Below, piece after piece: positions 5,571 through 43,359 of a DNA stretch of 43,359 nt. A program made the position numbers and the translations under genes. The stretch lies in NCBI GenBank assembly GCA_027577415.1, contig JANBQS010000058.1, positions 1 through 43,359 on the forward strand, given 5' to 3'. The notes below the pieces were generated by a model. That model had not been told where the DNA came from, searched no databases, and was given only the letters and a program-made list of their open reading frames with translations. Position 1 is the stretch's first letter, and every line of letters begins with the position of its first letter. Origin of the DNA: Coemansia sp. RSA 922 (taxonomy: Eukaryota > Kickxellomycota > Kickxellomycetes > Kickxellales > Kickxellaceae).

Positions 5571-5885
5571 ATGTCGGGCAGTGTTTTTGCATGTTATGAA
5601 AGTGGTTTGGTGACCCTATTATATATACCATCCAAACCGTTTACTGACGTAACGAAGCTAGTAGATATAGCTAACAACATAAAGAAAGATATGAGAAATC
5701 ATAACGTTGCTGTTTGTGGTGATGTCTATCCAATCAAGCTGGATGATGAGTTGGTTGAGTTAAGCAAGGTTGATGGGCTAAGCTGTGAAATGAATATGAT
5801 GTTGTACTTTGGAACAAAGGAACATTTTGAAGAACTATCGAGGCAACTTAAAGGAATAGCAGTTATTCAACCAAGTATTTTTTAA
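5571..5885 (+). CDS. Small-protein family member A (104 residues), unknown function
   Basis: The start at 5571 is fixed by the family N-terminus MSGSVFA and the TATA-like element about 95 bp upstream. The family pattern is a first strand (SVFACYESG), a helix rich in I/A/K (VDIANNIKKDM), then GDVYPIKLDDELVELS, then the hallmark MNMMLYFGTKEHF near the C-terminus (about 76-88). There is no signal peptide, membrane helix or cysteine pattern. The likely fold is beta-alpha-beta-beta-beta-alpha, judged by eye only. Intronless and AT-rich compared with the housekeeping genes. Six relatives occur in this window; the promoter is related to those of D, F and G. Function unknown. Confidence 0.75.
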   Translation: MSGSVFACYESGLVTLLYIPSKPFTDVTKLVDIANNIKKDMRNHNVAVCGDVYPIKLDDELVELSKVDGLSCEMNMMLYFGTKEHFEELSRQLKGIAVIQPSIF

Positions 5886-5963
5886 ACAATTGACAAACCC
5901 ACTTCAAGAGTTGGAAAGGACAATTGTTAATTGGTTTGTTAAAGCAACCCAACCAGTTATCCA

Positions 5964-6385
5964 CGATGTCTCTCACATCTGCTGATGCTCTAAAGTCACA
6001 CTGCGCTCACTTGATGCACCAGACATGCCTTTGCCACCAATGCCAAAAAGAAAAAAGTGCAAGTTTTTGCAGTCCCCTCACTACTGGGTAGCTTTTAAGA
6101 GCCAATAGGAAGCGGAAAAGTACACAGCATTCTTCTGCCTTTTTTTCTTAGCCGCTCATTCTAAAAAGGAATAATAACGTGGTTGCAGACTTCCTCCACC
6201 ACCTTTTTGTCTTTCTTAAAAGCAGCCAAAGTACTACATAGCTCACCAATGTCTCCTTTTTTTCTTCCTTAGGAGCTTTTAAAAGTATGAGACTTTACGA
6301 TTGCTTCTCTACTGCATAGAAGAGAAGACAGCAGTGTCCACTGACTGCAAGCAGGTATAAAATGTAAGCTACTCTGGCCTCCTTC
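5964..6385 (+). repeat. Promoter repeat, type II, copy 1 (upstream of member B)
   Basis: Aligns by eye with 24593-24958. Shared landmarks in order: ATGTCTCTCACA, GCTCACTTG/ACTCACTTG followed by TGCACCAGA, GCGGAAAAGTACACAGC/ACGGAAAAGTACACAGC, AGCTCACCAATG, GATTGCTTCTC and GTCCACTGACTGCAAGCA. Same order and spacing in both copies, with small indels. Confidence 0.8.
6354..6370 (+). promoter_or_regulatory. TATA core element of member B
   Basis: GGTATAAAATGTAAGCT, about 112 bp upstream of the ATG at 6468. Same element and similar distance as in members C, D, F and G. Confidence 0.7.
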
Positions 6386-6467
6386 CCCATCTCAGTTCTT
6401 CTCACATACCAACACTACTTTGCTACTTTTTAAACGTCTTTCTTTTGGATTAACATATCTATCAACC

Positions 6468-6815
6468 ATGTCAGGCAGCGTCTTTGCAATTTCTTACTAC
6501 ATTGATGATATAGTGCCTCAGTGTGAGGAAGAATTCAAGGACAGGGATATTCAAGCAATAGCTACTATACTGAGGAGTCGCGTTAAAGGTGTCAATGTTG
6601 ATGACGTGTATTTCGTCACTCGGGATGGTACTTTGGTAGATTTAAGTGTTGCAGAATATAACCGTGATATGAACGTTATGCTCTACTTTGGCTCCAAGGA
6701 CGATTTTGAGAAAGGTCGTAAAAAGATAACTGATTCCTCAAATAACAAGGGGTTAATATCTGAACTGACCACCAAGATTATTGAAGGAATACAGAGATCC
6801 ATTTGGTTCAACTAG
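6468..6815 (+). CDS. Small-protein family member B (115 residues), unknown function
   Basis: The start at 6468 follows ATCAACC and gives the family N-terminus MSGSVFA; an in-frame upstream extension has no support. Core: helix (DIQAIATILRSRV), then DDVYFVTRDGTLVDLS, then the hallmark MNVMLYFGSKDDFEKGRKK (about 68-86), then a variable, charged C-terminal helix. The central block is closest to member E, and the two also share promoter type II, so B and E look like a duplicated promoter-plus-gene pair. No signal peptide, no membrane segment, no intron. Function unknown. Confidence 0.78.
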   Translation: MSGSVFAISYYIDDIVPQCEEEFKDRDIQAIATILRSRVKGVNVDDVYFVTRDGTLVDLSVAEYNRDMNVMLYFGSKDDFEKGRKKITDSSNNKGLISELTTKIIEGIQRSIWFN

Positions 6816-7635
6816 AGACATTCTCCTACATATACGCAGAACTAATCACGATCGCCTAATCAGTGACCCAGGGCAAGGGTTGCGGCTTATTAGCCTGCAG
6901 TATAAAACTATTATTTAAAGACGTTTATTATTGTTTACAAAATAATACTCTTTATCTTCTATTTATTTATTGCATTACACCTTTTAGTATTACATATAAA
7001 AGTTGGTTTAAGAACTGCTCTATAGTTGCGGGGGGGTGTGGACCTTTAAATAGGGACGGCAGTCCGTGAGAGCAGTAACAAACCTACTACTCTTGATTGT
7101 GGAACAGCTGATTACAACAGTAATGATCAAGTCACAAAAAAAATGTTGGATATTGCTGCCGACCATCGAAATCCTACACTCATTACATTATCTTCTTGCT
7201 CCAGATTATACTTGCTTCTGCTGAATTGCAACTGTAATTGGAATGTTTGTCACTGATGTGTATAGTTTATGAATATATTAGTTTCCATGGATAATACTAA
7301 GTTGGTTTACTATTTTTGGTTGGCGAAGAGACTACCAAATAACAACAAAAGCACTACCAAAGAATACGTTTGCCTCTATACGATGAGAGAAGGGCAAATG
7401 CCACACTCTTAATTCAAGCTCATTGCGAGACAAAAACCAAATGCACAAGAAATTTATTAATAAAACTGGTCATCTAACCACAAACAAAATCCTCTAACTG
7501 TAATAGCAGCAAAACAACAACAAATATTCTCTGTGCATATACAAACACCTGATATAATCAAGTATTTGAAAACTGAAAGGTATGCCTCTGGTGTGAGATA
7601 TTATTACTTCCACAGTAATGTGACATAGTGGAAGT
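6816..7635. other. Intergenic between convergent members B and C
   Basis: 820 bp of AT-rich DNA between the stops of B (+) and C (-). One + frame near 7055-7240 is open without a plausible start and has a protein-like stretch (around ADYNSNDQVTKKMLDIA). It could be a degraded gene fragment but resembles nothing I recognise. No RNA gene or clear repeat is seen. Confidence 0.4.
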
Positions 7636-7962
7636 TTACTGGGTGCCATTACTTTTTTTAGCTAGTCCCTTAACCAAATTGTATAGCTCTTCACGACCAT
7701 AATTTTTTCTCATACATTTGCCTTGCTGTTCAGTCCCAAAAAATATATAGACATCATCTTCACGTGCTATGGCATCCGAATTTCCAATTCCTACCATGCA
7801 CTCCTTCGTAAAGACCGGGGCTTCAATAGTACCTCTGTTATCAGCTAGCCTGTTTAGTTGCCAATAAACGTCATCATTAATTTCACAATTTTTGGGTGTA
7901 CGTCCCACGACCTTTGGATTTGCTTCCAATTCACAGGTAACAGCATAGTAATAAAATGACAT
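7636..7962 (-). CDS. Small-protein family member C (108 residues), divergent, unknown function
   Basis: The start at 7962 is the first ATG (MSFYYYAV); two preceding codons in the same frame have no ATG. It is the most divergent member but keeps the layout: first strand YYYAV, a central NDDVYWQL, and a C-terminal hallmark DDVYIFFGTEQQ (about 70-81), in which the usual N-V-M-L is D-V-Y-I. Membership is supported independently by its promoter: the minus strand carries CTATAAAAAGGCAAGCTTCTG about 105 bp upstream, the same core as D, F and G. It is the only family member on the - strand. Function unknown. Confidence 0.7.
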   Translation of the reverse strand: MSFYYYAVTCELEANPKVVGRTPKNCEINDDVYWQLNRLADNRGTIEAPVFTKECMVGIGNSDAIAREDDVYIFFGTEQQGKCMRKNYGREELYNLVKGLAKKSNGTQ

Positions 7963-8718
7963 CGTCAAGTGAGCTGTTGTTGAGCAAAGTAAAAAAAAAA
8001 AGGAAAGGTGGGTAGAGAAGTATAGTGTGTTTTAAAAGTAGGAAGAAATAACAGAAGCTTGCCTTTTTATAGCAAAGAGGAGGAAAATGTCCAACTCGTA
8101 CTTTCTGCCAGGAGGTAGCCAGAGGAGGGCAATTTGTGCAGTCTAGCTGTTTTTTTAGTGAAGAAAATGCAGAACAAAAACATTTTGGGGATGGCAATAT
8201 ATATTCTTTCTTTGCCTCAAAAAGACACGCGTCATAGGCGGATTTCAATGTTCTGAATTACCTGCTGAAGGGGGATTTTTTTAAGGCTTTGCATTCTCTC
8301 ATCGTCATCAAATATAAGAGCCAAAAAGGAATGACATCATTTATATATTGTTCGTTCTTTTTTCAAAGGATGTGAAAGAAGAACAATTCTTTTTCTTTGC
8401 TTTTGTTTGCTTCAAAGGACACACGTCATAGACAGTCTTTCAAGTGCTGAATTTGAAATTTGTTTCTTCCCTCTCTATTTTTGCTTGCTCCTTTTCTTTT
8501 TTCTTTTCGTAGAGACAGGGGTAAAAGAATATCAATGACGTCACAATTTTCCTTTTGCTTTCTTTGAAACACGTATTTGAAAGGAGGATTTGCAAATTAG
8601 CATTGGAGCTGGTGAAGTGCTTCTTTCTTGGCTGTCTTCATGCTGCAATTTTCCACTCCCTTCCTCAGAAAATTCGAACAAACAGCTAATTTGGGGATGG
8701 CAGTTTACTCACATCTTT
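7963..8718 (-). promoter_or_regulatory. Promoter of member C with repeated TGACG sites
   Basis: The minus-strand TATA core lies at 8052-8072. Further upstream are bZIP-like sites at 8230-8234 (CGTCA), 8332-8339 (TGACATCA), 8422-8428 (CACGTCA) and 8536-8543 (TGACGTCA, a perfect CRE palindrome). Flanks of the first and third sites match (AAAGACACGCGTCATAGGC versus AAGGACACACGTCATAGAC, then TTCAA and GCTGAATT/TTCTGAATT), as do other segments, so this is an imperfect repeat of roughly 195 bp. ATTTGGGGATGGCA also recurs, near 8183-8196 and 8689-8702. No gene is seen. Confidence 0.6.
8052..8072 (-). promoter_or_regulatory. TATA core element of member C
   Basis: On the minus strand CTATAAAAAGGCAAGCTTCTG, about 100 bp upstream of the ATG at 7962. 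It matches the GGTATAAAAAGCAAGCT core of D and F. Confidence 0.7.
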
Positions 8719-8721
8719 TCT

Positions 8722-9291
8722 TCAAAGCACTTTGGTCATGTCTGGAGAGGCCTGTGTGAAGCCGCTCACCACCTCTGCTGCCGTACGCGTTTTGGCTAGG
8801 CTTGCCATGGGCTGGACCCTTCCTGGTTTGTTGTTGTCCCAGAACTCCTCGTCGAATCCCTGTGACACGGCAATTGCTCTCGCCTTCTCCTTGTATGCCT
8901 CTGCCGTTTTCGCTGCTGCGGCGACTGCCAGGGCTTCTGCTTGGCCCGCTTCGACAAGCTTGGCTACTCCCTGGTCATACCTTTCATTGGACGCCTCGTC
9001 GGCCTCCTCCTTCGCTTTCTTGTGCGCGATCAGCTCTACCTTCCTGGCTTCCTTCAGTTCGCGAAGATCCTCAGCCCTCTTGTTCTGGTTCGCCTCGTAC
9101 TGTTCCTCAGCCAGGAGTAGGTCCTTCATGCTTTCCGCGCTATGCTGCTTTGTGTTTGTCAGCAACTTCTGCATGCAAAGGCTCAGCGTAAGTAGGGCTG
9201 TCGTACTCAGTGCCGGGCTGGCCTCCGCCAGCTCGTTCATTTCAGTGACCAGCCCTTCCATCCGAGCGATTGGGTCCTTGGTGGTAGTCAT
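8722..9291 (-). CDS. Hypothetical coiled-coil protein, 189 residues
   Basis: Begins MTTTKDPIARMEGLVTEMNE. The middle (about 65-140) is a continuous run of E/K/R/A/Q heptad-like sequence typical of a coiled coil or a long amphipathic helix. The tail contains a conserved-looking FDEEFWDNNKPGRV (about 146-159). No signal peptide or membrane helix, and no family recognised. The complementary strand is also open over most of this length, but its translation is S/A/L-rich and looks like a shadow, so the minus frame is preferred. A minus-strand TATA (GTGTATAAAAGCTT, 9407-9420) lies about 120 bp upstream, and the ATG has a purine-rich context. Confidence 0.65.
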   Translation of the reverse strand: MTTTKDPIARMEGLVTEMNELAEASPALSTTALLTLSLCMQKLLTNTKQHSAESMKDLLLAEEQYEANQNKRAEDLRELKEARKVELIAHKKAKEEADEASNERYDQGVAKLVEAGQAEALAVAAAAKTAEAYKEKARAIAVSQGFDEEFWDNNKPGRVQPMASLAKTRTAAEVVSGFTQASPDMTKVL

Positions 9292-9586
9292 GGACTCGAG
9301 TCGTTGCTTGTTGTCGATTTTTTTCCAGGTTTATTGTGCTTTTTGCCAGTTGATTCGATAGTCTGTCTGCTCTCGATTTGCTGAATTTCAATAAATGCCA
9401 AAAAAAAAGCTTTTATACACCCTGCAGGGTCGATATCGTGCCTCAAGTCTGTACTCCCAACCTTTTGACCAATTATGGTCTTGGATCCCGATCAGCGCAA
9501 TCAAGGTGAATGCTGCGCAAAAAAAGCTTTATGCTCTCTCTTCTTCTACTACTGTTTTATTTATTTATTTATTTTTTTCACTCTCA
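9292..9586. promoter_or_regulatory. Divergent promoter between the coiled-coil gene and FANCI, with a CArG box
   Basis: It contains the minus-strand TATA box GTGTATAAAAGCTT (9407-9420), the palindrome CCTGCAGG (9421-9428), and CCAATTATGG (9469-9478), a perfect CC(A/T)6GG CArG box of the type bound by MADS-box factors (Mcm1/SRF). A T-rich leader (TTTATTTATTTATTTTTTT) precedes the FANCI ATG. Confidence 0.5.
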
Positions 9587-12500
9587 ATGGCCGACGAGTC
9601 GAATTCACAAGTCGTTGACGCGTTGCTAACGCTGGGGCGAGAAAAGGCGTTTGCCGAAATTGGACAAATGCTGAGTGGACTCGGCGAAGGCGTGCTTTAC
9701 AGCCTGGTTGAAGAGGACTTGGGCACACTAGTTGCTGGCGACGTGTCATTGAGCCCCGTATTTCAGCTTACAAATCTAATATTCAAGGGCGGATGCGCGT
9801 TGGTCGAAAAGGGCACGACACAGGCTGGTGAAGGTATCCTCGGAACAGTGACTAGCGCGTGCGTGAGCCAGATCTGCGAGGACGACCCAAGGGACGAGAG
9901 AGACAGTGGGAAAAAGTGGAGTACGATCAGCGATAAGCTCCTTGAGGTTCTGCCACAGCTTAGCTCTCGGTCGATTATTGACGTTGCGTTTCGGATCCTC
10001 GCTGAGTTAAAGGCGTGTGGGTCGATTCCAAGCGCCTTGCATAGCTTTTTGCCTATGCTGTTGGACACTTTGGGCACTATTGGGCCGGTGGAGATTGTGA
10101 CCAAGGGCGAGGGGTTTGGCGCATCGACTGCAGCTGCTGGCGACTCTTCTACTACCATCACGCGTACTGGCCTGGCGCTAAAGTCATACTGGGTCGAGTC
10201 AGCATGCTCCTATCGGTGGGACCCAAAGTCGTCAGTGGCTGTCTGCGCGCTACTGCGCGAGATCGTGCTGAGCGAGCGGCTGATCGAAGTAGTGGCATAT
10301 CGGATGCTGCGACAGCTGAAGCTGGCTGAGCTTAATGAGCTTCCAGCGATGGTCTACCAGCTGCTATTGTTTGCGCGCAATGGGTTTAAGCGCGAGATCA
10401 TTGGCGGCATTCTGAGCTTCTTTGACACGGCGGAGAACGACAGCTCTAAGGACGGTGGCGATGCCGCTCAGTCGCAGAAGAGGTGGCGCGAGCTGGGCGA
10501 CATCGAGGGCACAGTGATGCTGCACATTATCTACAATATTAAGCAGGACTTTGAGCTGGGCGATGCGCTGATTGCCCATGCCAAGGAGCAGGGTGACGTG
10601 GCGCTAGCAGCAGCTGGCGGAGCTCCGTCTACTTTTTCGTTTGCCTGTCTGCTGGCCCTGGCGCGTATCCACCGCTTCGAGGATGCAGTGATATCGTTTT
10701 TGCGAACGACCATAGTCAAGAGCATCCACGACGCAATGGCTCTGGCGTCGACTGGCTGGATAAGGCCCCTCTTGCCGCCCATTCGGCTCTCGGCGCAGCA
10801 GCAGCTGCTGAGTGCCGTGGTGGCGCGCTCGTCGTATGGCTGGGACCAGGTCACGCAGTCGCTGATCCAGCTGTGCCTGAGCGTGATGGATCTCACTGGA
10901 TCATCTGCCGCAGCCCGCCGCAGTGCTTACAGCGCCCAGGCGTGTGCTGAGGCGCGGCGAATCAGCACGCAGGCGCTGAGGCTGGCGTTTGGCGGGCACG
11001 ATTTTGTTCGAGCCGAGGTGGTCGACCAGATCCTGAGCCGAGTGATGTTCCAATCCGACTCGCACATGCACTTTCTCGCGCTGCTGGGCGACTTGGTAGC
11101 GGACGACTCGGATGTGCTGCGCGTCTTTGTGCCCAAGTTTGTCGACGTATTCGACTCGATATCCGTTATATCTCCCGCGGCCCTTGAGAAGCTGCTGGTG
11201 GCCATTTCGCCGATAGTCCTGGACGACGCGCCATTCCGGTCCTCGCTGATTCTCGTCTTGCGAAAGATTCTGTTTGCCCACAGCTTTGACGACCGACGCA
11301 CTGCGCTGAGTGGCCTGTTTGTGCTGACGTCGAGCTTTGCTTCAGCGCTCGACGAGTGCCAGGGTCGATTGGGCGCTGCGGCGCTGGCTGCGGCTGGCGC
11401 TGGCGAGGTGCGCCATTTGCAGCGCCGCGTCGACGTATTAGTATCCGCCCTGCTTGAGGTTTTGGGTCTCCTGCGCCGGTGCCTGACGCAGCAGCCTGAA
11501 GTCAGAGCGGCGTCGTATGAGCGGCTGGGTCTTTTGCTCGACATGCCGTGTGTCCGCAGCAGCTCCCTGCTGCTGAGCGCGCTGCACGACATATTCCGAG
11601 TGGAGTTTGCAAAGTACTACCGCGCCCCCAGTCAGAGCCAAGGCTGCTCGCCAATCAACATCCAGCTGTGCTTGCACCCAGTGACCAGCAAGGTGGTTAT
11701 GCCCATCGCCAGCTTCCTCCACTGCTATGGCAAGCTGGTCGTGGCTTCTCGCACTCCGGGCTTTGGTACGAGTAGCTCTTCTTCTTCTTCGGGGCTTTCG
11801 GCTGCGGCGGTGGCAGCAAAGGCGTGGAGGGACTTGTGTTTGCGGTTTTCAAAGGCGCAGATTGAGGACTTTGAGCTGGATCCGACTGGTGACTATTCGC
11901 TCGATAGCCAGTTTGGTCTGCGCAATTTCAGCACTGCTCACTTGGTCGTCGGCTGTCTGGACGCGTGTATTGGCTACGCCCTGGCTCACATTATCCATGT
12001 CGCCCCCGCCACTGCCATCGTTGACGAGGATTCAGATGGAGCCAGCAGCGGCAACTTGGCTGATCCGACAATCGTTGTTGAATTGTTTACAAAGTTCAAT
12101 CGATTTGGCGACATACTCAGTTCGCGGTGTATAGACGAGCGCAAGAAGAAGATCATCCCCTCGATTAGCGACCTGTCTTTGCTGTCGCTTGACTCGGTAG
12201 TCAGTGTGTTGCGGTTGGTGCTTCCTGATAAGCAGCGTGTCGATAATGGCTCTCACCCGCTCAACCTTGATCCAGTCACTGACCACAACTGGTTTGTCTC
12301 GCGCATTGCCAAGGCCGGCCTGTGGTCAGCGAACCAGCTCCTTATCAAGCACTTGTTGGAAGTCGCCCTGGCCAGGATTCAGCGCCGACCCGTAGCTGGT
12401 AACTTTACGAGCGCCAACAACAATTCTACGGTGTTGCCGCCAGCACCAGCTGCTCGAGCCCTGCTAGAGATGGCCTATGTCGTGTTCAGTGGCGTGCTAG

Positions 12501-14167
12501 TGTACTTTGGCGATAGCAGCGACCAGGCGGCTGATACGGAGCAAAGCCAGCGCCCTCTGCCAGTATACTTGCGTGCCAAGGCAGCGCGTGGTCGTGGAGT
12601 TGTACATATAAGCGCCGAGATATTGCTTGCCTGCATGACTCTTCTGACCACCTCTAACTCACTTGACCATCTGGCGGTGGCTATCGTACGGCCTGCTCAT
12701 GAGCACTTTACTGACGGCTTGGCTTTGCCGTCTAATGTCGCTGTGGAGTGTGTTGCTGCGCTTCTCACCAGTCTACGCCGCGCAGTGACGACATTGTTGC
12801 GACAAAAACCCATGGCAGTCAAAGATGCCTCTATTGTGCTCTCGTCAGTTCAGATCTTGACTACCCGGCTAAGCGAGCTTGCATTTAGCGGCATCCGAAG
12901 GGAGGACCAAGTACTGGCGTACCACTGCCTACATCAGACGGCAAAGTGGACGGTGGAGCTAGTACAGAGCGAGATGCCTAACGACTTGGGTCTAATGAAA
13001 AGCCTCGTTATACAACTAACCAGCTGTCAGGCGTTCTTACAGCCCGAGTCAGTCGTCATTGGTACTACTGCAGTAGCTGTGGGTCCTCGCTCGGATGAAG
13101 TGGAGCTAGAGCCTGTTGACCAATTAACAGCGCGTATGTGTGCGGCGTCGCGGCTGCATATCCGCGACCCAGACAACTTTGACGACGAGGATGAAGATGT
13201 TGACGAGCAAGAGTTGGAAAAATTCACAGTTCGCTCTATTCCCGCGCTTGCCTCGCTTATCATGTCATGGTTTAAGGCTGAGCTACATCGCGTCGACTGG
13301 GCTATCGGACAGTTGCGGAGGAGTGTAAATATGGAGGTGAACCAGCGATCCGGTACAGATGACGGTGGCGACGTTGACTTGCCTCTGAGCATAGGCGTGG
13401 AGCGTCGGATCTGCTGGCGCATGTGCGCGTTGTCACATGTCCTAGAGCGGCTACTCAGTGGGTCGTTGCCCAAGGCTATGTACGATCTGGTTATTCGCGC
13501 CTTCCAGGACTTGCATCGAACTTGGGCGCTCCTGACGCGAGCTAAAATGGCCTCTGCGCAGCTGCCTATCACTGAATCGTACATTGACGCGTTATTGTTG
13601 ATCTGCTCGGACCTCAATACTCATGCGTACGCCCTTATTACGAACAAGTACAGCAATATGATAGGAGCCGAGGATGCTACGGAACAACCACTGTCGGGGG
13701 GAATCAAGAAACTGGCCGATGGCAAGGACGAAAAGTCAAAAAAGGTGGTTAAGCCTAAACCCAAATCAAAAGTCATGCGGGATTCGTCGTTGGTTTCGTC
13801 GCTAGTGTATCAGATGGAGTTGTCTGAAAAGTATGTCATTCAGTTGAGTACTAAATTCAAAACTCCGTTGGCGCATTATCTGAAGCGAAGCACTGTCCGC
13901 GATTTTAGGATTAAAAAGTCGGATATTCCTGAAGCCATGGCCATCACCAGCGACGATGAAGGCATTCATATGCATGATAGCGTCAGTCCGGTTCAACAAC
14001 TGCAATATCCTCAGTTGGTTGAAGATGACGAAGATGAAGAGGAGGAGGAAGATGTCGCAGTTAGTGGTGCAGAGTCTGACACGGAAGAGTTGGTAGCGGA
14101 TCAGACGGGTTATAGCTCTGCTGAAGATACTGCTGATGTCAGAGGCAAGCGAGCACGACTAGAATAG
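9587..14167 (+). CDS. FANCI: Fanconi anemia group I protein (FANCI)
   Basis: 1,526 residues from the ATG at 9587 (MADESNSQ); an upstream in-frame ATG at 9395 overlaps the TATA element of the divergent gene and encodes a non-protein-like leader. The all-helical solenoid matches human FANCI at many points: ELPAMVYQLLLFARNG, EGTVMLHIIYNIKQDFELG, LLALARIHRFEDAVISFL, SSYGWDQVTQSLIQL, AEVVDQILSRVMFQ and LILVLRKILFAHSFDDRR. FANCI pairs with FANCD2 as the ID2 clamp on DNA in interstrand-crosslink repair. The position aligning with the human ubiquitin-acceptor lysine (K523, in FKIHEMIR) appears to be G469 (FGGHDFVR). A serine run follows near 725-735, and the C-terminus is acidic and then basic (GKRARLE), plausibly a nuclear signal. 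It is intronless over 4.6 kb and convergent with chitin synthase. Confidence 0.92.
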   Translation: MADESNSQVVDALLTLGREKAFAEIGQMLSGLGEGVLYSLVEEDLGTLVAGDVSLSPVFQLTNLIFKGGCALVEKGTTQAGEGILGTVTSACVSQICEDDPRDERDSGKKWSTISDKLLEVLPQLSSRSIIDVAFRILAELKACGSIPSALHSFLPMLLDTLGTIGPVEIVTKGEGFGASTAAAGDSSTTITRTGLALKSYWVESACSYRWDPKSSVAVCALLREIVLSERLIEVVAYRMLRQLKLAELNELPAMVYQLLLFARNGFKREIIGGILSFFDTAENDSSKDGGDAAQSQKRWRELGDIEGTVMLHIIYNIKQDFELGDALIAHAKEQGDVALAAAGGAPSTFSFACLLALARIHRFEDAVISFLRTTIVKSIHDAMALASTGWIRPLLPPIRLSAQQQLLSAVVARSSYGWDQVTQSLIQLCLSVMDLTGSSAAARRSAYSAQACAEARRISTQALRLAFGGHDFVRAEVVDQILSRVMFQSDSHMHFLALLGDLVADDSDVLRVFVPKFVDVFDSISVISPAALEKLLVAISPIVLDDAPFRSSLILVLRKILFAHSFDDRRTALSGLFVLTSSFASALDECQGRLGAAALAAAGAGEVRHLQRRVDVLVSALLEVLGLLRRCLTQQPEVRAASYERLGLLLDMPCVRSSSLLLSALHDIFRVEFAKYYRAPSQSQGCSPINIQLCLHPVTSKVVMPIASFLHCYGKLVVASRTPGFGTSSSSSSSGLSAAAVAAKAWRDLCLRFSKAQIEDFELDPTGDYSLDSQFGLRNFSTAHLVVGCLDACIGYALAHIIHVAPATAIVDEDSDGASSGNLADPTIVVELFTKFNRFGDILSSRCIDERKKKIIPSISDLSLLSLDSVVSVLRLVLPDKQRVDNGSHPLNLDPVTDHNWFVSRIAKAGLWSANQLLIKHLLEVALARIQRRPVAGNFTSANNNSTVLPPAPAARALLEMAYVVFSGVLVYFGDSSDQAADTEQSQRPLPVYLRAKAARGRGVVHISAEILLACMTLLTTSNSLDHLAVAIVRPAHEHFTDGLALPSNVAVECVAALLTSLRRAVTTLLRQKPMAVKDASIVLSSVQILTTRLSELAFSGIRREDQVLAYHCLHQTAKWTVELVQSEMPNDLGLMKSLVIQLTSCQAFLQPESVVIGTTAVAVGPRSDEVELEPVDQLTARMCAASRLHIRDPDNFDDEDEDVDEQELEKFTVRSIPALASLIMSWFKAELHRVDWAIGQLRRSVNMEVNQRSGTDDGGDVDLPLSIGVERRICWRMCALSHVLERLLSGSLPKAMYDLVIRAFQDLHRTWALLTRAKMASAQLPITESYIDALLLICSDLNTHAYALITNKYSNMIGAEDATEQPLSGGIKKLADGKDEKSKKVVKPKPKSKVMRDSSLVSSLVYQMELSEKYVIQLSTKFKTPLAHYLKRSTVRDFRIKKSDIPEAMAITSDDEGIHMHDSVSPVQQLQYPQLVEDDEDEEEEEDVAVSGAESDTEELVADQTGYSSAEDTADVRGKRARLE

Positions 14168-19740: not shown

Positions 19741-19871
19741 TTTGATTGGGACGTTTTATAAAATAAAAATAAAAAATGTACACAGAAGAAAGAAAAGAAA
19801 AAATTTAAAAAGAATTTATCAAAAGGGAAAGAAGGAAAGAAAAAAATTATATATATTTTTTCTCCTCTGAT

Positions 19872-22265
19872 TTACTTTGTAACATCCATATCATTATCTT
19901 CGTCGTCGTCATTAGACATATCGTCTTCGTCGTCATAGCTGGCACCTGGATCAGCGGCTTGAGCCTGAGCAGCAATAGCAGCGACATCGATACCTTGTTC
20001 AGTAGCAGCAGCGACCAACAAGTCGTTCATCCTAGTTAACGAGTCAATAAAGGCATTAGCGCGATTAAGCAAGTATATCTTGCTAACAAGCTTTGGATCC
20101 AAATCAGGCAAACGATTCTTCAACGCCTGAAAACAAGTCTTTAACGAATCCCTCCGCTTCTGCTCAGCCTGCTTGTGGTTAGTGCGTCGACGCTCCAATC
20201 CCGATTTAAACTCTGTCTTGTACTTTAGACCCAGAAACTCTGAATTCCCCTCCATGATATTCTGATAGTTACTCTTCGTCGCCAGCCTAGTAACAACATC
20301 GGCCTCGAGTCCGACAATGTTGGTGGTGGAGGTGGCAGCGATGACGGCGCGTGGTCGCATTTGTGGAGTCACCGACCCGCTGGTCATAGGCCCCATATTG
20401 GGCGTTGCTTGCGACGACGCTATACGACGCGGTGCTAATGTAGCGGGTGTTAGCGGAGCGAGTCCAGGCGATGCCATAGAGTGGGGAGAGAACCCTGGCG
20501 ACGAGACATTTTTCAGAGTCGAAGGCACTAGCGGCGTCTGCCGTGGCGACAGAAGCGATGTGCGAGACCTCCGTCTCCCCGCTGCAGACGACAACGTACC
20601 AGATTCGCGCTTAGCCCTAGGGTTCTTAGCGGCAGCAACCGGCTTGGCGCCGGCCGTGACCGACTTGCGCCTAGTACGCCTGCCATTGCTTTCGGGCGCT
20701 GGCTGAGCGCCATTATCCTCGGCTGATGCGCTGCGACGCCCGCCAAGCACCGACTCTGAGGGGCCGATGTGCAGGGGCGGCGGCAGTGGCGGATGCACAA
20801 ACTCGGTCATAGGCGCCGACTGCGTGACAAACTGCAACAACGACGCTGACATTGCGCCGATGGGATTCATAGGCCCCGCAGCAGGCGAAGGCCCCGCAGT
20901 GCCTATTTGCTGCCGACCAAAGGCCGACACTATAGCCGAAGCCGTAGCAGGCGACTGGCTGCTGCCCTCCGACGAGACGATCTCGCCATTGACGCTGTGC
21001 GGGAGATGATGGGCCGACAGCGGCAGGTTCATAAGCGACGCGGGCGTAGCCGACTGCTGCTGGTCCCTCAGCGCAATGGGCGCAGTGGCTGGCGGCCGGC
21101 TGCTGTCCTCGATCCAGCTATTGAACTGCTCGGCAGTAATCATCGGATCATCGTCGGTCTGCATCGCTTCCATGCCATTGCTGCTGAGCATTGCCAGTGC
21201 TGCCGAGTTGAGCGACACTGATCTCTGCGGAGCCGGTGGCACAGACCCGTTGCCGAATATGGAGCTGGCAAAGCTTGGCGACGCATTGAGCTGATGCAAT
21301 GTGCGATTGCGCGCCTGCTGCGTCTGCCCGCCTGCGATCCTAGGCGACGTGGCGCTGGTTGGCAGCGAGTCGAGGAAGAAATCGTCGGCGTCGGCTGCCC
21401 CTGCTCCTCGCGACAACAGACTGGGCGTGTATACCAGCTGGTTCTGATTCGCTTGGTGCGAGTTGGGCAAGGGCGACCGCATAATAGATCCACCGTTGGG
21501 CTGGCGCTGTTGTTGCTGCGCTGAGCCGCGATAAGGATGGTACTGTGACGACCCCAGCGAATGAGAGCTGCTCGCCTGAGCTACTACTGGCCCACTGGCA
21601 GTACCAGTCGAAGTGCTTCCCCTCCGCCTGCCAATCCCTCCCCCGCCGCCCATGCCGGCAGGCAAGTACGGCGACAGCGTAGCAGCAGAGACCGATGGGA
21701 ACGACGGCGAATGCTGTTGCATCATCATTTGCTGCTGCTGCTGCTGTCGCCGCATAATATGCTCGGCCGTAATCGACGGCGACGGCGGCGGCATCGACAC
21801 AAAGTCAGTCGACGACTGCTGCTGCTGGTACGCCATCTGCTGCTGCTGAGCTCGGTACTGCTCTGCCGCGCTGCCACCGCCAAACAAAGTCGGCGAGAAT
21901 GGCCCGCTATTCATGGCTGCGTGTGGAATAAGCGCGGGCGATGTCAAAGGACTGAAGGCTCGAGCCTCGTCGGGACGTCTGAGCATGTGTGAGTTGAGTG
22001 CTGGCGTCGACGCTGGCGAGAGAAAGGGCGTCAGTAGCTCTACCATTTCGGCCGTCTGCTGCTCGGTCAACCCCTCCACCAACCCAATGTGAAGCGGAGA
22101 CATGGTTGCTGCTGCTGTTAACGCCTTGTTGCTGTTCGTGTTGGAGGGCGCCAGAGTCATGCTCGCTGGCGTGTGTATTTGCTGCTGTCTCTGCTGCCGT
22201 ATACCAGAGTCGCCTTTGCTTAAATTACCGCTATTTGACGCTGGGTGTTGGTAAGACGACGACAT
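19872..22265 (-). CDS. bHLH transcription factor (Max/Mlx-like basic region), polyQ-rich
   Basis: 797 residues. The only folded region is a bHLH at about 690-750. Basic helix ERRRTNHKQAEQKRRDSLK has H697, E701 and R705, the H-E-R triad of proteins that read CACGTG. AEQKRRD is reminiscent of Mlx/Mondo-type factors. No leucine zipper is apparent after helix 2. The preceding 680 residues are S/P/Q/A-rich with several polyQ tracts (about 135-200 and 250) and repeated S-P motifs, the usual layout of a fungal activation region that may be a phosphorylation target. The C-terminus is strongly acidic (D/E/N). Its target may include the E-boxes in nearby promoters (1333, 27826, 33567, 41407), but this is inference. 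I cannot name an ortholog. Confidence 0.85.
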   Translation of the reverse strand: MSSSYQHPASNSGNLSKGDSGIRQQRQQQIHTPASMTLAPSNTNSNKALTAAATMSPLHIGLVEGLTEQQTAEMVELLTPFLSPASTPALNSHMLRRPDEARAFSPLTSPALIPHAAMNSGPFSPTLFGGGSAAEQYRAQQQQMAYQQQQSSTDFVSMPPPSPSITAEHIMRRQQQQQQMMMQQHSPSFPSVSAATLSPYLPAGMGGGGGIGRRRGSTSTGTASGPVVAQASSSHSLGSSQYHPYRGSAQQQQRQPNGGSIMRSPLPNSHQANQNQLVYTPSLLSRGAGAADADDFFLDSLPTSATSPRIAGGQTQQARNRTLHQLNASPSFASSIFGNGSVPPAPQRSVSLNSAALAMLSSNGMEAMQTDDDPMITAEQFNSWIEDSSRPPATAPIALRDQQQSATPASLMNLPLSAHHLPHSVNGEIVSSEGSSQSPATASAIVSAFGRQQIGTAGPSPAAGPMNPIGAMSASLLQFVTQSAPMTEFVHPPLPPPLHIGPSESVLGGRRSASAEDNGAQPAPESNGRRTRRKSVTAGAKPVAAAKNPRAKRESGTLSSAAGRRRSRTSLLSPRQTPLVPSTLKNVSSPGFSPHSMASPGLAPLTPATLAPRRIASSQATPNMGPMTSGSVTPQMRPRAVIAATSTTNIVGLEADVVTRLATKSNYQNIMEGNSEFLGLKYKTEFKSGLERRRTNHKQAEQKRRDSLKTCFQALKNRLPDLDPKLVSKIYLLNRANAFIDSLTRMNDLLVAAATEQGIDVAAIAAQAQAADPGASYDDEDDMSNDDDEDNDMDVTK

Positions 22266-23094
22266 TTATACTAATCCTCCTCTCCAACCTTTTTTATTTT
22301 TGCGAAAGGCTGTAGTAATTGAAAGAAAAAAACGCGTGGTTGCTATATAATTAGAATACAAGCGAATTTAGTGCGAGAAAATAAATAAATAAAAAACTGA
22401 AAAAAAAGTAGGGGCAACTTTTTTTTCCCCGTTGGTAACAAGCCCAGATGATAGCTCTTCTGCCGCTCTCTCCCTCTTTAGCCAAGCTTTCACAAAAAGA
22501 GCGTACAAATGACGCCTTTCCTTTCTTGGCTTATCCCACTAAGAGCAAGAAAGGACTCCTTTTAGGCGCCCCACCCTTTTTTCCCTATGCTATCGAGTTT
22601 TTGCTTACCTTTCTTGTATACAACAACCGTCCAAAGAAAGAGAGAGAAGAAAAAATAATGCAAGTTAACAAAAAAAGGATAACAGTGATGAAGAGTTCTC
22701 CGAGTCACAGTTTTGCTACTCTAGATAAGCAGTACTGTGACTTGGAAAAAGTACCACCCTTTATTTTGTGAAAAAGAAGTGGCCCTATTTCCCACCAGTC
22801 CAGCCCATGTGCGCCCTCCGCGTTCTGTGACAGGTCCCTTCCCCACCCCCCGCACGCAATTTAGGGATACCCAGTCTCATTGGCTGGGTCTGATCGATTT
22901 TCCAGACCGGGTAATATACCCAAAAAAAGATTTGATTTGTCCAAATGAGGTAAGACCGGTGATTACCTAGCAAAAGATGTATCACAGACCTCTCACCTTT
23001 GTATATGAATTGTAAAAAAGAAGAACATGCGGTAAAGGACAGGTTTCAAAAGACAGGCAGAGTTAACCTCAAATAGGTCTGGAATATTGTGATA
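22266..23094. other. bHLH upstream region and boundary of the second accessory island
   Basis: About 830 bp without a supported gene. Immediately upstream of the bHLH gene it is A-rich with AAATAAATAAATAAAAAA. At 22869-22957 several inverted repeats lie side by side: ACCCAG/CTGGGT, GGTCTG/CAGACC, GGGTAATATACCC and GGTAA/TTACC around ACCGGT. A purine-rich stretch (GAAAGAGAGAGAAGAAAAAA) lies near 22636. Confidence 0.4.
22868..22957. repeat. Cluster of short inverted repeats
   Basis: Within 90 bp: ACCCAG-8 to 9 nt-CTGGGT, GGTCTG-10 nt-CAGACC (22887-22908), palindrome GGGTAATATACCC (22909-22921), and GGTAAGACCGGTGATTACC (about 22939-22957). No gene overlaps it. Confidence 0.55.
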
Positions 23095-23575
23095 AAAAGC
23101 GCACCTCGCCAATTATGTCAAAGTACTGAAAAGGTACCAATTTTTACTAGCAGGATACGTCATTATGGCGCTCTAGTCCCTCTGCTGCTCTTCCTCAATT
23201 ATTGCTACTCTCATCTGACGCTCTTTTTGCTGCCAATAATTCAAGGAGATGGCGTATATTTGCAGTCACTTTTATAGTGCTCTTTCTTTGCAACCGATAT
23301 TTTTTTAAAGGAAATGACGACGTGTTTCAGCAAGCATTTCAATGGGATGACGCGTTTTTTGCAGTCTCGCTTGTATTGCACCACTTTTGGACTAAGAAAG
23401 TCGCTATTTTTGTCTCATGATTGAAGAAAAATGCGGATTGCTCTTTTGGCTGAGCATTCCTCAGTGTGTATTTTCTCTTGAATTGTGCTGAGAAACAGTG
23501 GCATTGCCTGACAGTGAACAGGTATAAAAAGCAAGCTGTTTTTTTGGCACTTCTTTCTTCATATTTCCTTTTTTC
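23095..23575 (+). repeat. Promoter repeat, type I, copy 1 (upstream of member D)
   Basis: Near-identical to 25647-26160. Shared landmarks: CCAAT, AGCAGGATACGTCATTATG, TTTTTGCTGCCAATAATTCA, TTTGCAGTCACTTTTATAGTG, TTTCTTTGCAACCGATATTT, GACGACGTGTTTCAGC, TGCACCACTTTTGGACTAAG, AAAGTCGCTATTTTTGTCTC, ACAGTGAACAGGTATAAAAA and GGCACTTCTTTCT. The homology stops shortly before the start codon. Confidence 0.9.
23521..23537 (+). promoter_or_regulatory. TATA core element of member D
   Basis: GGTATAAAAAGCAAGCT, about 100 bp before the ATG at 23624. Identical to the core of F apart from the last base, and shared in degenerate form by the other members. Confidence 0.75.
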
Positions 23576-23623
23576 ACCACTTTTTTTCCACTTATTCAAA
23601 CATATTTACTTTTAATCCACACA

Positions 23624-24043
23624 ATGCCAGGCCGTGTTTACGCATTTTATTTGAAGAATAATGATTTTCAGATAATGGGCTATAGGAAGGTTAACGGTGA
23701 TACACCTGAAAAACTAGCTGAGCGCCTAAGTAGCCATATTAGTGAGGTTTCCGCTAATGTGGTATATTGTGTCAAGCCGGATGCTTTGTTAGTAGATCTA
23801 AGCGTGAGTGAATTTTCTGAAGATAGGGATACTATTTTGTTCTTTGGAGCCAGGGAGGACTTTACGGCGGCTTGTGATATGATGGGCGGAGCCGCAAAAG
23901 CGTATGATAGGATAAAGTATCATATTGCCACGGCTCTGCAACAAGAGAAAGATAGGGAGGACAATAGAAAAGACATGGAGAAGCTCAAGGCACATGTAGC
24001 CGAACATGGTCTCAAAAACCTGAATTCGGTTTTTGAATCGTAA
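23624..24043 (+). CDS. Small-protein family member D (139 residues), unknown function
   Basis: The start follows TCCACACA and yields MPGRVYAF. Core: helix (EKLAERLSSHISEV), then NVVYCVKPDALLVDLS, then the hallmark DTILFFGAREDF (about 67-78). It is the longest member: after the hallmark comes a variable region and a charged C-terminal helix (QQEKDREDNRKDMEKLKAHV, about 107-126) that looks like a short coiled coil. No signal peptide, membrane helix or intron. Its upstream 0.5 kb is almost the same as that of F, yet the two proteins share little beyond the family motif. Confidence 0.78.
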   Translation: MPGRVYAFYLKNNDFQIMGYRKVNGDTPEKLAERLSSHISEVSANVVYCVKPDALLVDLSVSEFSEDRDTILFFGAREDFTAACDMMGGAAKAYDRIKYHIATALQQEKDREDNRKDMEKLKAHVAEHGLKNLNSVFES

Positions 24044-25042
24044 GCTTCTTCTTTGGCATTTACTTCCTTGCCTGTCGTGAGTCCGAATAGGAGCTAGCAA
24101 GGGATTCTTTTGTCGGTTGCCTTTATACCTGTTATGTACTTACCACGCTCCATGGTTGGAAATAGGAGTTCTTATGATTTAACTACACCTGCATTACTAT
24201 TCTGCAAATTGTCACTTGCTTATATAGCATGCAATACTCCATGTAGGTCATGGAGATACACATACCCTTGTGCTTTCTTGTAGTGACATACATTTAGTGA
24301 TTACTCGCTACATTTAATAACTAGTATCAATAGCTTTTCTACTTGTGACAATATACACATATTTAAATAAATACTTGAGCAACACAACTGTCAACTCGTT
24401 CGGTTGTAGTAAAAGTAGGCTACCATATGTGCTTGACCTAATTCCGTTACACTAAAGAAGGCCATCATTCTATGCAGTGTTTACACAAAAAGCGTATAGA
24501 AACACGATTGGCCAAAAAAATACTGTTTTGCAGTGCTTGAGCGCCAAGTTGATCTTTACTAATGTATTAAGATGTCCCAAGTTGTTTTTCAATAATGTCT
24601 CTCACAGCTCTTGGTGCTTTAAAGCCTTGCTGTACTCACTTGTTGCACCAGAAACGCCTTTGTAGTCTCTCCTTTCTTTTTGAATCATTTTTCTAATAGG
24701 AAACGGAAAAGTACACAGCTTTCTGATACCGTTCTCTTTGCCACATCTGCTTAAAGAATAATGCATGTTTGCAGTCTCCCACTACCACGTTTGGCTTTAC
24801 TCAAAGCAAACAATGCTCTACACAGCTCACCAATGCTTTCTTTCCCGTAGGAGCTTTAAAGGTGAGACTTTATGATTGCTTCTCAAGTGCATAGGATGAA
24901 GGCGGCCATGTCCACTGACTGCAAGCAACTAGAAAAGAGCAAGCCCAACTGGCCTTTCTTTTTTTTTCCCGTCTCTCTCTCTCTCACCACTGTTCTACTT
25001 GTCAATCATATTTATTTATTTACTAGCACTTTACCTCTCATA
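24044..25042 (+). promoter_or_regulatory. Spacer and promoter region of member E
   Basis: About 1 kb. 24044-24590 is AT-rich with no supported gene. 24593-24958 is the type II promoter repeat. It includes TTTGCAGTCTCCC (about 24768-24780), but where B has GGTATAAAATGTAAGCT it reads AACTAGAAAAGAGCAAGC (about 24927-24944), so the TATA is lost or weak. A pyrimidine-rich leader (TTTCCCGTCTCTCTCTCTC) follows. Confidence 0.6.
24593..24958 (+). repeat. Promoter repeat, type II, copy 2 (upstream of member E)
   Basis: Homologous to 5964-6385 in the same orientation, about 18.6 kb away. Shared blocks include AATGTCTCTCACA, ACTCACTTGTTGCACCAGA, AATAGGAAACGGAAAAGTAC, AGCTCACCAATGCTTTCTTT and GTCCACTGACTGCAAGCA. 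Confidence 0.8.
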
Positions 25043-25396
25043 ATGCCAGGCTACATTTTCGTATATGTTCACATCAAGGGCGCACTTTTGCACCTTGATG
25101 ACATTCCATTTACTAACAAAGGGCTTGAAGCTATAGCCAGCAAAACAAGGAATGACATAAGAGTAAAAGGCATCGAGGTCAACAATGATGTCTATTGCAT
25201 CATGGAACGTGATAATTTATTGGAGTTAAGCAAAGCTAATTTTACCAGTGACAAGAACATTATGTTGTACTTTGGACCTAAGGAGCAGTTTGTAACCAGT
25301 GCAAAAAAGTGGATGGATGGTACAGGCCAGTTTCTTTTTACTGAATATCAGGATGCTATTGCTAGAATGAGGGAGGGAGGTGTTATATTTTACTAG
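25043..25396 (+). CDS. Small-protein family member E (117 residues), unknown function
   Basis: The start at 25043 (MPGYIFVY) fits the family; the frame is open upstream, but that part translates the promoter repeat and pyrimidine leader. Core: helix (GLEAIASKTRNDIRV), then NNDVYCIMERDNLLELS, then the hallmark KNIMLYFGPKEQF (about 71-83). The C-terminus is a short helix ending in a hydrophobic GGVIFY. It is closest to member B in the core block, in agreement with the shared type II promoter. No intron. The degenerate TATA suggests lower or different expression, which is inference. Confidence 0.78.
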   Translation: MPGYIFVYVHIKGALLHLDDIPFTNKGLEAIASKTRNDIRVKGIEVNNDVYCIMERDNLLELSKANFTSDKNIMLYFGPKEQFVTSAKKWMDGTGQFLFTEYQDAIARMREGGVIFY

Positions 25397-25646
25397 TGGT
25401 TTGAGTTTACCACGTACGGTGATTAGTGAGAGTATGTTTTCTTGGGGTTGTAACAGTGCATGGCCACCTTTGCTCACAGTCTATTTTCTCTTTAATGACA
25501 TGACCATACGCATATAAATGAGTTCACCTACAGTGACAGCTTCTTGGCTGCAACATGCCACATTTAGCATCCAGAAACAAATTGCAATTTTAACCTTTAA
25601 CAATACATATATTCATTACTCTTCACCTGCCTTGGGGAGCATGGAA

Positions 25647-26160
25647 GAAGCGTACTGCGCCAATCAAATCAACCAAAGTACTAAAAGGATACCGATTTTT
25701 ACCAGCAGGATACGTCATTATGACGCTCAAGTGTCTTTGCTGCTCTTCCCCCAATTATTGCTGCTCTCACCCAACACTCTTTTTGCTGCCAATAATTCAA
25801 GGAAATGACGCATTTTTTGCAGTCACTTTTATAGTGCGCTTTCTTTGCAACCGATATTTTCAAAGGGAATGACGACGTGTTTCAGCCAACATTTCAACAG
25901 GATGGGGAGGGTGTTTTCTGCAAATAATTCAACGTGATGACGCGTTTTTGCAGTCTCACTTGTATTGCACCACTTTTGGACTAAGAAAGTCGCTATTTTT
26001 GTCTCATTATTGAAGAAAAATGCGGATTGCTTTTTGGTTGAGCATTCATCAGTGTAGCTTTTCTTGAGGCATACTGAAAAAACAAATGCATCCTCCGACA
26101 GTGAACAGGTATAAAAAGCAAGCCGTTATTGGCACTTCTTTCTCCTTATTTCCTTTTTTT
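25647..26160 (+). repeat. Promoter repeat, type I, copy 2 (upstream of member F)
   Basis: Same order as 23095-23575. It is longer by about 33 bp because the ATTTCAAC-GGATG segment is partly duplicated (near 25885-25940: TTTCAACAGGATGGGG...ATTCAACGTGATGACG). The remainder differs by scattered substitutions. Confidence 0.9.
26108..26123 (+). promoter_or_regulatory. TATA core element of member F
   Basis: GGTATAAAAAGCAAGC, about 120 bp before the ATG at 26229, preceded by ACAGTGAACA as in D. Confidence 0.75.
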
Positions 26161-26228
26161 CTCTTCATCCACTCTACCATTTTGCTACTCTTCACACTCA
26201 TTTATTAGCTCAGTTTTCACTCCACGCA

Positions 26229-26630
26229 ATGTCAGGCACGGTGTATGCAATTACTCCTCATTCTAATGGATTAGAGTTTAACGTACGCAGTGAGCTGTTC
26301 TCAGAGAGGCTTCCAACTATAGCTAATCGCCTGAGAGATATAATTGCACCAGGAATTGATAATATATATTGTATCTATTATGACAACCAGCTGTTGGCAT
26401 TGGACGATGAGAGGGTAAAAAAGCTTACCGATACCTCAAACGTTATGTTGTTCATTGGAACGGAAGATACTTATAGATCTGTTGAACGTGTGATGGGTGC
26501 TGCAAGTTTGCATGATGAATTGGCTTTAAAGATATCCATAGCCCAAAGTAAACCAGTGCTTTTCTATAACGAAAGTTGGCCAGAAGAGCGCCAGCAAAGA
26601 TTAGTTAAGTCGGTAGAAGCATTTCTTTAG
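26229..26630 (+). CDS. Small-protein family member F (133 residues), unknown function
   Basis: The start follows CTCCACGCA and gives MSGTVYAITP. Core: helix (RLPTIANRLRDII), then DNIYCIYYDNQLLALD, then the hallmark SNVMLFIGTEDTY (about 70-82), in which the usual F-G is I-G. A C-terminal region of about 45 residues has a basic/hydrophobic helix near the end (EERQQRLVKSVEAFL). No signal peptide, membrane helix or intron. The promoter is the twin of D, but the proteins have diverged strongly. Confidence 0.78.
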   Translation: MSGTVYAITPHSNGLEFNVRSELFSERLPTIANRLRDIIAPGIDNIYCIYYDNQLLALDDERVKKLTDTSNVMLFIGTEDTYRSVERVMGAASLHDELALKISIAQSKPVLFYNESWPEERQQRLVKSVEAFL

Positions 26631-27331
26631 AATAGATGAAAGCCTGAAACTTACTTCTCACTGGGAGGAGCGTCTCCAGCCAGCGCACGTTGGGTGTAGC
26701 TAGGCCTTGTGCACTCCGCGTGTTACGGGTGTAGTTTTTAAAATGTTGAATAATATATTTTAAAAACCAGAGAAGAAATCCCTCGATCTCCAGCCTAATG
26801 CTGAGCGGGTAAAAATTAAAACAGTAACTAAAATACTCTGATAATCAGAACGTTGCCTGGTACTCTAGGCTTGCTGCTGCTCCTCCAAATTCTAACCGCT
26901 CCCATTATACATGTCTTTGCAAAAGCTGTTTAAAAGAACAAATACATATTTGCAGTCTCTCCTTACCTTTTGAGCCATGTCAACCAATTGGAAACAAGCA
27001 AGAGTGATCCTTTGCAACCACCTTTTCAAAAAGAAATGACGTAAGTAGTCGTTTTTATAAAATACATTCCTTTTTGGCATCTTTGTTTTAAAAGGAATGA
27101 CGTATGTTTGTCGTCTTTGTGCTATTGAATGTTCTTTTGAGCTAAGAGCGTTGCCATTTTTGTTTTAAGCTTGAGGATGACATACAGAATTTTTGTCGCA
27201 TAGCTTTAAAAAAAAACTAGAATGGAAGCCAGTGCCAGGTATAAAAAGAAAGCTATTCTAGTCCTTTTTTTCTTCTCTCTCTCATCATCCACCACACCAT
27301 TTACTTTTGCTCAAGTTCTTCACTCCACACA
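26631..27331 (+). promoter_or_regulatory. Spacer and promoter region of member G
   Basis: About 700 bp. After the F stop there is an imperfect hairpin, GTTTTTAAAAT (26734-26744) with ATTTTAAAAAC (26757-26767). Further on are TTTGCAGTCTCTCC (about 26949-26962), TGACGTAA (27037-27044), TGACGTATG (27098-27106), a block GAGCTAAGAGCGTTGCCATTT equivalent to the ACTAAGAAAGTCGCTATTT block of D/F, and GGTATAAAAAGAAAGCT (27238-27254). Confidence 0.6.
27238..27254 (+). promoter_or_regulatory. TATA core element of member G
   Basis: GGTATAAAAAGAAAGCT, about 95 bp before the ATG at 27332. Confidence 0.75.
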
Positions 27332-27703
27332 ATGAATAGATTTGTTTATGCATTTACTCACCGCAAGGGTTTCCGTTATCCAGAGGTATGCTATGAGGGA
27401 CGCCGCGAGTATTTTGATGGAAAGCGTGTAGCAACACTGGCTGGTTTTCTGAGACAAGGGCTTGGACCAGGAAGAGACTATGGCGAGGAGGTCTATTGTG
27501 TTCTAAGCGACAACGAATTGTTGGACATAAATAGTAGCAAGGTAGATGGACTTGGTAACAACAAGAACGTTATTTTGTTCTTTGGATCCAAAGACATTTA
27601 TAATATGTGTAAAGCTGGATGTCATTATGAAAGTTTGTTTGATGCATTGAAGGGTAATGTCGCTCAGAAGCATCAAATCTCTGATAATTTTCACCAGTCA
27701 TAG
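27332..27703 (+). CDS. Small-protein family member G (123 residues), unknown function
   Basis: The start follows CTCCACACA and gives MNRFVYAFTH; the usual S/P-G is N-R here. Core: helix (VATLAGFLRQGL), then EEVYCVLSDNELLDIN, then the hallmark KNVILFFGSKDIY (about 83-95). The N-terminal half has an extra, arginine/tyrosine-rich loop (about 14-30). No signal peptide, membrane helix or intron. Promoter is type I-like. Last member of the second cluster; the next gene is the housekeeping V-ATPase subunit. Confidence 0.78.
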   Translation: MNRFVYAFTHRKGFRYPEVCYEGRREYFDGKRVATLAGFLRQGLGPGRDYGEEVYCVLSDNELLDINSSKVDGLGNNKNVILFFGSKDIYNMCKAGCHYESLFDALKGNVAQKHQISDNFHQS

Positions 27704-43325: not shown

Positions 43326-43359
43326 AGAGTATCCAGAAATTTCATAGTAGTGAGAGAAT

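Follow-up and report, generated by a model that had tools for sequence, protein, structure and literature searches.

Long-term balancing selection at the het genes of Aspergillus fumigatus leaves hyperdivergence that is limited to the coding sequence (CDS) (PMC11138114), and at het-B of Podospora anserina the alleles are highly divergent, one partner being a small protein (PMC10890737). The wtf drivers of Schizosaccharomyces pombe form a large dispersed family marked by non-allelic gene conversion and changes in copy number (PMC6526906), the Sp185/333 immune genes of sea urchins carry diverse CDS between similar 5' and 3' flanks, for which gene conversion has been proposed (PMC3091723), and in the HYP effectors of cyst nematodes extreme allelic variation is confined to part of the gene (PMC11228951). 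We have analyzed contig JANBQS010000058.1 of the fungus Coemansia sp. RSA 922 (the window: the whole contig of 43,359 nucleotides, one of the 960 contigs of a 20.4-Mb genome represented by one assembly, GCA_027577415.1), which carries seven small genes, A to G, belonging to two related, dispersed subfamilies. We find that the 5' flanks of these genes and their relatives are often better conserved than the proteins, that coding sequences at corresponding positions of colinear contigs can be hyperdivergent and that they appear to have moved between loci, three points missed by the first-pass annotation of the window. To our knowledge, most of what is known of allorecognition and drive genes in fungi comes from Dikarya.

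Results

Seven open reading frames (ORFs) of 104–139 amino acids (aa) lie in the window exactly where the first-pass annotation had placed them: on the forward strand A (5571..5885, 104 aa), B (6468..6815, 115 aa), D (23624..24043, 139 aa), E (25043..25396, 117 aa), F (26229..26630, 133 aa) and G (27332..27703, 123 aa), and on the reverse strand C (7636..7962, 108 aa). The six forward genes, here subfamily 1, align across a common core, and in single-sequence searches of the whole genome B retrieves E with an E-value of 1.3e-9, D with 6.6e-7 and A with 4e-4, F retrieves G (1.2e-8) and D retrieves B (1.3e-6); by these comparisons the six are one family, related beyond chance. C, used as query in the same way, retrieves none of the other six at an E-value ≤ 1, and its N-terminal motif is MSFYYYAVT, versus MSGxVFA in subfamily 1. 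Profile alignment (hhalign) of 13 subfamily-1 with 16 subfamily-2 sequences gives a score of 40.3 (E-value 5.4e-6, probability 85.7); among 100 column-shuffled controls the highest score was 17.8, and reversing the alignment gave 12.45. Since C is joined to the others only through this profile–profile comparison, it is best placed as a distant sister in a separate subfamily (subfamily 2). The single family of seven that had been proposed thus stands for A, B and D–G, on the single-sequence searches, and gives way for C to a sister subfamily recognized from profiles.

The genes extend well beyond the seven members, and beyond the two islands of the window, to which that proposal had confined them. 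The genome-wide copy count called for by the first-pass annotation, a tally of nine single-protein searches, gives 53 distinct family places on 30 contigs at an E-value ≤ 1e-3 (14 of subfamily 1, 36 of subfamily 2 and three from a more distant query) and 62 on 36 contigs at an E-value ≤ 1. The 53 places are a lower bound for relatives, the search scoring only its best candidates; second-copy places are counted among them, and a few, such as C85, C469, C160:7554 and C10:3874, contain in-frame stops (C followed by a number designates a contig of the same assembly, the window being C58, and single letters A–G the window members). The analysis of flanks below uses the sequences of 29 genes (13 + 16), and the count of nearest relatives 28 of these.

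The first 20.5 kb of the window have a colinear counterpart, 92–96% identical, in contig C335, and C172/C870, C17/C349, C247/C307, C615/C25 and C446/C132 are further colinear pairs with family genes. Most simply, colinear contigs are the two haplotypes of a heterozygous genome, although a similar picture would be produced by recent duplication, by a hybrid or by a mixed culture. Family proteins in such pairs range from strongly divergent, at 34.4% identity for C172/C870, 38.6% for J/Lx (the genes of C615 and C25; 32% over 113 residues) and 54.1% for C17/C349, to milder, at 74.3% for C247/C307, 85.4% for C, 90.2% for C446/C132 and 93.0% for B (the C172 and C17 ORFs being counted from an upstream ATG; counting from the family start gives 33% and 55%). 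Neighboring ORFs that reach 200 aa and are matched in the other copy show 89.7–100% identity at the protein level (n = 19; these were picked by length, some are partial and one has a stop, and ORFs unmatched at the ends of contig pieces were left out). The seven family pairs differ from these 19 neighbors (Mann–Whitney p = 1.3e-4), and also from all 32 matched neighboring ORFs of 100 aa or more (p = 4.6e-4).

In the sharpest case, C172/C870, the divergence is confined to the CDS. When the two copies are compared in 150-bp bins, the thirty bins (4.5 kb) before the gene are 88–99% identical, the bins overlapping the CDS 85, 60, 54 and 82%, and the bins past the gene 91–100%. In C17/C349 the first 100 bp of the CDS are conserved, the next 200 bp are 54–74% identical and the sequence past the stop codon 90–98%; C247/C307 shows merely a shallow dip in identity. 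If the colinear copies are alleles, this is hyperdivergence in a narrow footprint, of the kind seen at het loci, sharpest in C172/C870 and C17/C349 and milder in C247/C307, B, C and C446/C132. In the C335 counterpart of A, a deletion of about 226 bp has taken away the start and the initial portion of the gene, leaving only the 3' part, and no second copy of D–G was present among the matches found in the single-protein genome searches.

The number of synonymous substitutions per site (dS) in the three most divergent colinear pairs is 0.96, 0.81 and 0.33, versus 0.04–0.22 in the 19 neighbors of 200 aa or more. A higher rate of amino-acid replacement is therefore not enough to account for C172/C870 and J/Lx, whose coding sequences would represent either an old balanced allele or an import from another locus. 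In the closer subfamily-2 pairs, nonsynonymous substitutions per site (dN) are mostly about as frequent as synonymous ones (dN/dS pairs of 0.12/0.14, 0.20/0.19, 0.29/0.28 and 0.23/0.23). The dN/dS ratio is 0.04–0.16 in five housekeeping genes at the first island of the window, and 0.32 for B and its C335 copy. Beside J and Lx there is another small ORF (L027 3997–4410 and L029 3811–4209; L followed by a number designates a fetched locus of the genome), the colinear copies of which are 39.6% identical with a dS of 1.3; a further fragment lies at L027 2698–2856. These sequences, which have no Pfam match, possibly represent a second hyperdivergent small-protein family.

The conservation of the 5' flanks is evident within the window itself. 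The flanks of D (23094..23574; TATAAA at −101) and F (25645..26159; TATAAA at −119) are 80% identical over about 480 bp, versus 24% for the proteins. Those of B (6104..6362; TATAAA at −112) and E (24695..24936; no exact TATAAA) are 75% identical, and that of A (5313..5488; no exact TATAAA) matches a portion of the D flank at 75% identity, all of these lying on the forward strand. The flank of C (7965..8625, reverse strand; TATAAA at −109) is 77% identical to those of C172 and C870 and 90% identical to that of C335. A matching 5' flank of at least 100 bp without 100 bp of matching CDS is found in 16 of the 78 subfamily-1 pairs, the reverse in 5; the corresponding figures for the 120 subfamily-2 pairs are 33 and 5. 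Genes H and M, two loci of contig C160, are 84–100% identical over the last 350 aligned bases 5' of the ATG, 46–67% through the CDS and 76–94% past the stop codon, the H flank being interrupted by an inserted repeat. Of the 29 flanks, which are related sequences, 22 have TATAAA at a position from −78 to −120. Sites with TGACG recur in subfamily-2 flanks; because these flanks are homologous, we claim no enrichment.

Several repeats and stray flanks were seen along with these sequences. A dispersed repeat of about 215 bp (window 42351–42564) is 80–95% identical to copies at L022, L029, L035, L036 and L044, and the L022 copy sits within the 5' flank of H. A short dispersed repeat lies directly past B (window 6834–6994; 75–84% identical to L027, L028, L035, L037, L038 and L040), and a repeat at the contig end (window 43276–43359) is 83–97% identical to stretches in L023 (three), L028, L040 and L043. 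Family-type 5' flanks are also present at C615:12203–12354 (L027 2203–2354), where no family reading frame follows, and at C31:10572–10892; these are possibly dead copies or unrecognized members. Near a distant family member, an ORF at L048 2763–3083 resembles, by eye, the catalytic end of a Tc1/mariner-type transposase.

The relationships of the flanks and of the proteins often disagree. The gene nearest by flank differs from the gene nearest by protein in 23 of 28 genes; some of these, A, G and C160a among them, have only a short flank match. In three of the four colinear pairs examined, each allele has its nearest protein at another locus (C172 is nearest to C, and C870 to C349; C307 to C37, and C247 to C115; J and Lx each to H), C17 and C349 being mutual nearest proteins; the coding cassettes therefore appear to move between loci. 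What looks like the clearest case of CDS transfer is C307, the protein of which is 93% identical to that of C37, versus 74% for its colinear partner C247. The pair {C37,C307} has a support of 100/100 in the CDS tree and is rejected by the 5' flanks (p = 4e-4), the group {C307,C115,C247} is rejected by the CDS (p = 8.7e-5) and {C172,C870} by the proteins (p = 0.006); for C172/C870, a four-row CDS tree matches the flank tree in shape and differs in branch length alone.

The model of E has a ubiquitin-like fold, with the ββ-α-ββ-β core and strand order of ubiquitin that characterize a beta-grasp (predicted local distance difference test, pLDDT, 79.5; middling fold-search scores). The fold comparison suggested by the first-pass annotation was thus realized in part, with two models, a confident one for E and one for C that failed as a structure (pLDDT 45.2). 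The family may share a ubiquitin-like core, as predicted from E. A role as a ubiquitin-type conjugated modifier was rejected, as none of 29 complete members ends in Gly-Gly; E alone has this doublet, four residues before its end. No toxin-type domain was found C-terminal to the core of the window members, or of the fetched members, which are short stand-alone ORFs. The Crinkler header PF20147 has no match among the seven window members at an E-value ≤ 10; it has none in the whole genome either, where the control of the search was equally silent, making that result uninformative. A longer ORF for E starts at 24872, and the preferred start is at 25043. Because the long ORF begins upstream of a TATA-like region, its hydrophobic start is probably untranslated, and we rejected a secreted protein on this positional argument, which is not a signal-peptide prediction.

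That no domain could be recognized, as the first-pass annotation had reported, agrees with Pfam scans of 13 subfamily-1 and 17 subfamily-2 members, which returned only scattered matches below the cut-off, each in a single member (1/13 or 1/17; best E-value 0.0036), that we take as chance. Profiles compared with solved structure chains gave no convincing sequence match (best E-values 0.38 and 1.1). No viral or prokaryotic relative was confirmed by tblastn, in which viral contigs were searched with the 13-member alignment and separately with C, and prokaryote contigs with E alone; single-protein scans of this kind detect close relatives only. PADLOC returned just two weak single matches. Nothing on this family was found in the literature, of which subscription papers were mostly outside coverage, so this is not proof of its being unpublished.

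Between the two islands of the window lie FANCI, chitin synthase, RPC4 and basic helix-loop-helix (bHLH) genes. The interval, put at about 14 kb in the first-pass annotation, is 15.7 kb from C to D. The FANCI-like gene (9395–14167) has five FANCI Pfam domains; as far as we know, FANCI is absent from most Dikarya, and its presence here hints at an early-diverging fungus. An ORF of 189 aa at 8722–9291 has no Pfam match and is unusually divergent between copies for a neighbor.

Discussion

The explanation that we favor, with a probability of about one half for the whole, is that these genes are mobile, hypervariable coding cassettes with an intracellular role in recognition or conflict. The small proteins of this multigene family, each encoded by a single ORF, would have the predicted ubiquitin-like core and probably stay inside the cell; at each locus, a hypervariable coding cassette would follow a 5' flank of the family type. 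Through gene conversion of tracts about as long as a CDS, coding sequences would be swapped between non-allelic loci, and diversifying or balancing selection would keep them highly polymorphic. Possibly, the conserved core offers variable surfaces to a partner; the most likely role would be recognition in genetic conflict within the cell, in fusion allorecognition of the het type or in the recognition of parasites or mobile elements. We hold the evolutionary description with considerable confidence, and regard the functional class, recognition or conflict, which we infer from one assembly, as about evenly poised. We favor recognition or conflict inside the cell and do not choose firmly among allorecognition, immunity and drive. 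The first-pass annotation had already named effector-like, allorecognition or stress proteins as possibilities, and the family does vary as effector, allorecognition or immunity genes do. A fuller version, in which an early-diverging fungus maintains a recognition repertoire (self/non-self or anti-parasite) on a stand-alone ubiquitin-like fold, through recurrent whole-CDS exchange among dozens of loci that is bounded by the start and stop codons or by points close to them, is tentative and in our view doubtful.

Several results weigh against the cassette explanation. The pairs of the window itself are mild (93.0% for B, and 85.4% for C over 103 aa), C446/C132 is 90.2% identical with a dN/dS of 0.35, and the unrelated neighboring ORF at 8722–9291 is as divergent as these milder pairs (84.7%; dN/dS 0.39). 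The divergence of J/Lx runs past the stop codon, after which the sequences fail to align. C37/C307 has a dN of 0.04 and a dS of 0.09, and an 800-bp flank tree places C307 weakly (54/52). Moreover, a common origin of the CDS is not rejected for H/M (p = 0.11), J/Lx (p = 0.16), D/F (p = 0.31), C10a/C10b/C170 (p = 0.22) or C10a/C10b (p = 0.08). Positive selection on C was considered and dropped: against its C335 copy, dN is 0.064 and dS 0.031, a ratio of 2.06 that comes from only about 17 changes, and the excess of dN over dS is not significant (P = 0.23).

Many dispersed copies, places with in-frame stops, the deletion in the second copy of A and the signs of gene conversion (the mismatch of nearest genes by flank and by protein, and the tree tests) are also what would be expected of a selfish element, a wtf-like killer meiotic driver or toxin–antidote family that diversifies by non-allelic gene conversion and leaves suppressors and dead copies; in the wtf family, too, copy number varies and non-allelic gene conversion is pervasive (PMC6526906). 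We think drive unlikely here, given that the first-pass annotation saw no membrane helix and that E is predicted to have a ubiquitin-like fold, unlike the wtf proteins. Effectors directed at a host or prey in an arms race, for example stand-alone relatives of the Crinkler ubiquitin-like header that lack a classical signal peptide, seem distinctly unlikely. Crinkler headers are N-terminal ubiquitin-like folds without a true signal peptide (PMC5289972), the family proteins begin directly with the predicted ubiquitin-like core, and hypervariable effectors are known elsewhere, such as the HYP proteins of nematodes (PMC11228951). However, PF20147 went unmatched in the seven window members, as it did in the genome with its silent control, and the fetched members have no attached toxin domain.

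Ordinary, fast birth and death of genes under weak or no constraint, without special selection acting on their variation, would account for a dN close to dS in most closer pairs and for the disrupted copies. Relaxed constraint cannot, however, raise dS, which in the three most divergent pairs exceeds that of the neighbors, and reading frames and core residues are maintained; this makes the explanation improbable. Most improbable of all, to our minds, is an assembly artefact in which the flanks of one locus are fused, in chimeric contigs, with the CDS of another, even though the genome is fragmented, the family flanks are alike and a true donor locus may be missing from the assembly. Such a mis-join would have to be anchored in long shared words on either side of the CDS, and between the paired copies the longest identical word across the 3' edge of the CDS is only 12–22 bases in all four colinear pairs, and that across the 5' edge 16–22 bases in three of the four and 67 in C247/C307; in H/M, the longest words at the CDS edges are 39 and 19 bases.

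If mobile hypervariable cassettes are indeed what these genes are, the family would open a new setting for work on recognition, balancing selection and gene conversion, in which copies at one locus can share just a third of their residues within otherwise ordinary DNA. The loci C172/C870, C615/C25, C17/C349 and C247/C307 lend themselves to direct tests.

The family resembles het loci in its CDS-limited hyperdivergence, which is found in the sharpest pairs, and differs from them in comprising dozens of small genes in which no HET or other known domain was matched. The wtf proteins are multi-pass membrane proteins with poison and antidote forms. With wtf genes the family shares its large size and dispersal, the signs of gene conversion and changes in copy number, whereas E, in place of a membrane protein, is predicted to be ubiquitin-like. 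Like the Sp185/333 genes, family genes have shared flanks around diverse CDS, but the sea urchin genes are animal genes with two exons and microsatellite-bounded duplications, whereas those described here are single ORFs. Variation in HYP arises by motif rearrangement in a central domain at single-gene loci, in contrast to whole coding sequences that differ at many loci. With the Crinkler header the family shares a predicted ubiquitin-like fold at the very N-terminus and no true signal peptide (PMC5289972), and differs in having neither a C-terminal toxin domain nor a match to PF20147 (the genome control being silent). An exchange of cassettes would follow a logic comparable to that of antigen or immune-receptor genes undergoing gene conversion. 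The family shows signs of three of these systems: divergence of the het type, conversion of the wtf type and flanks of the Sp185/333 type.

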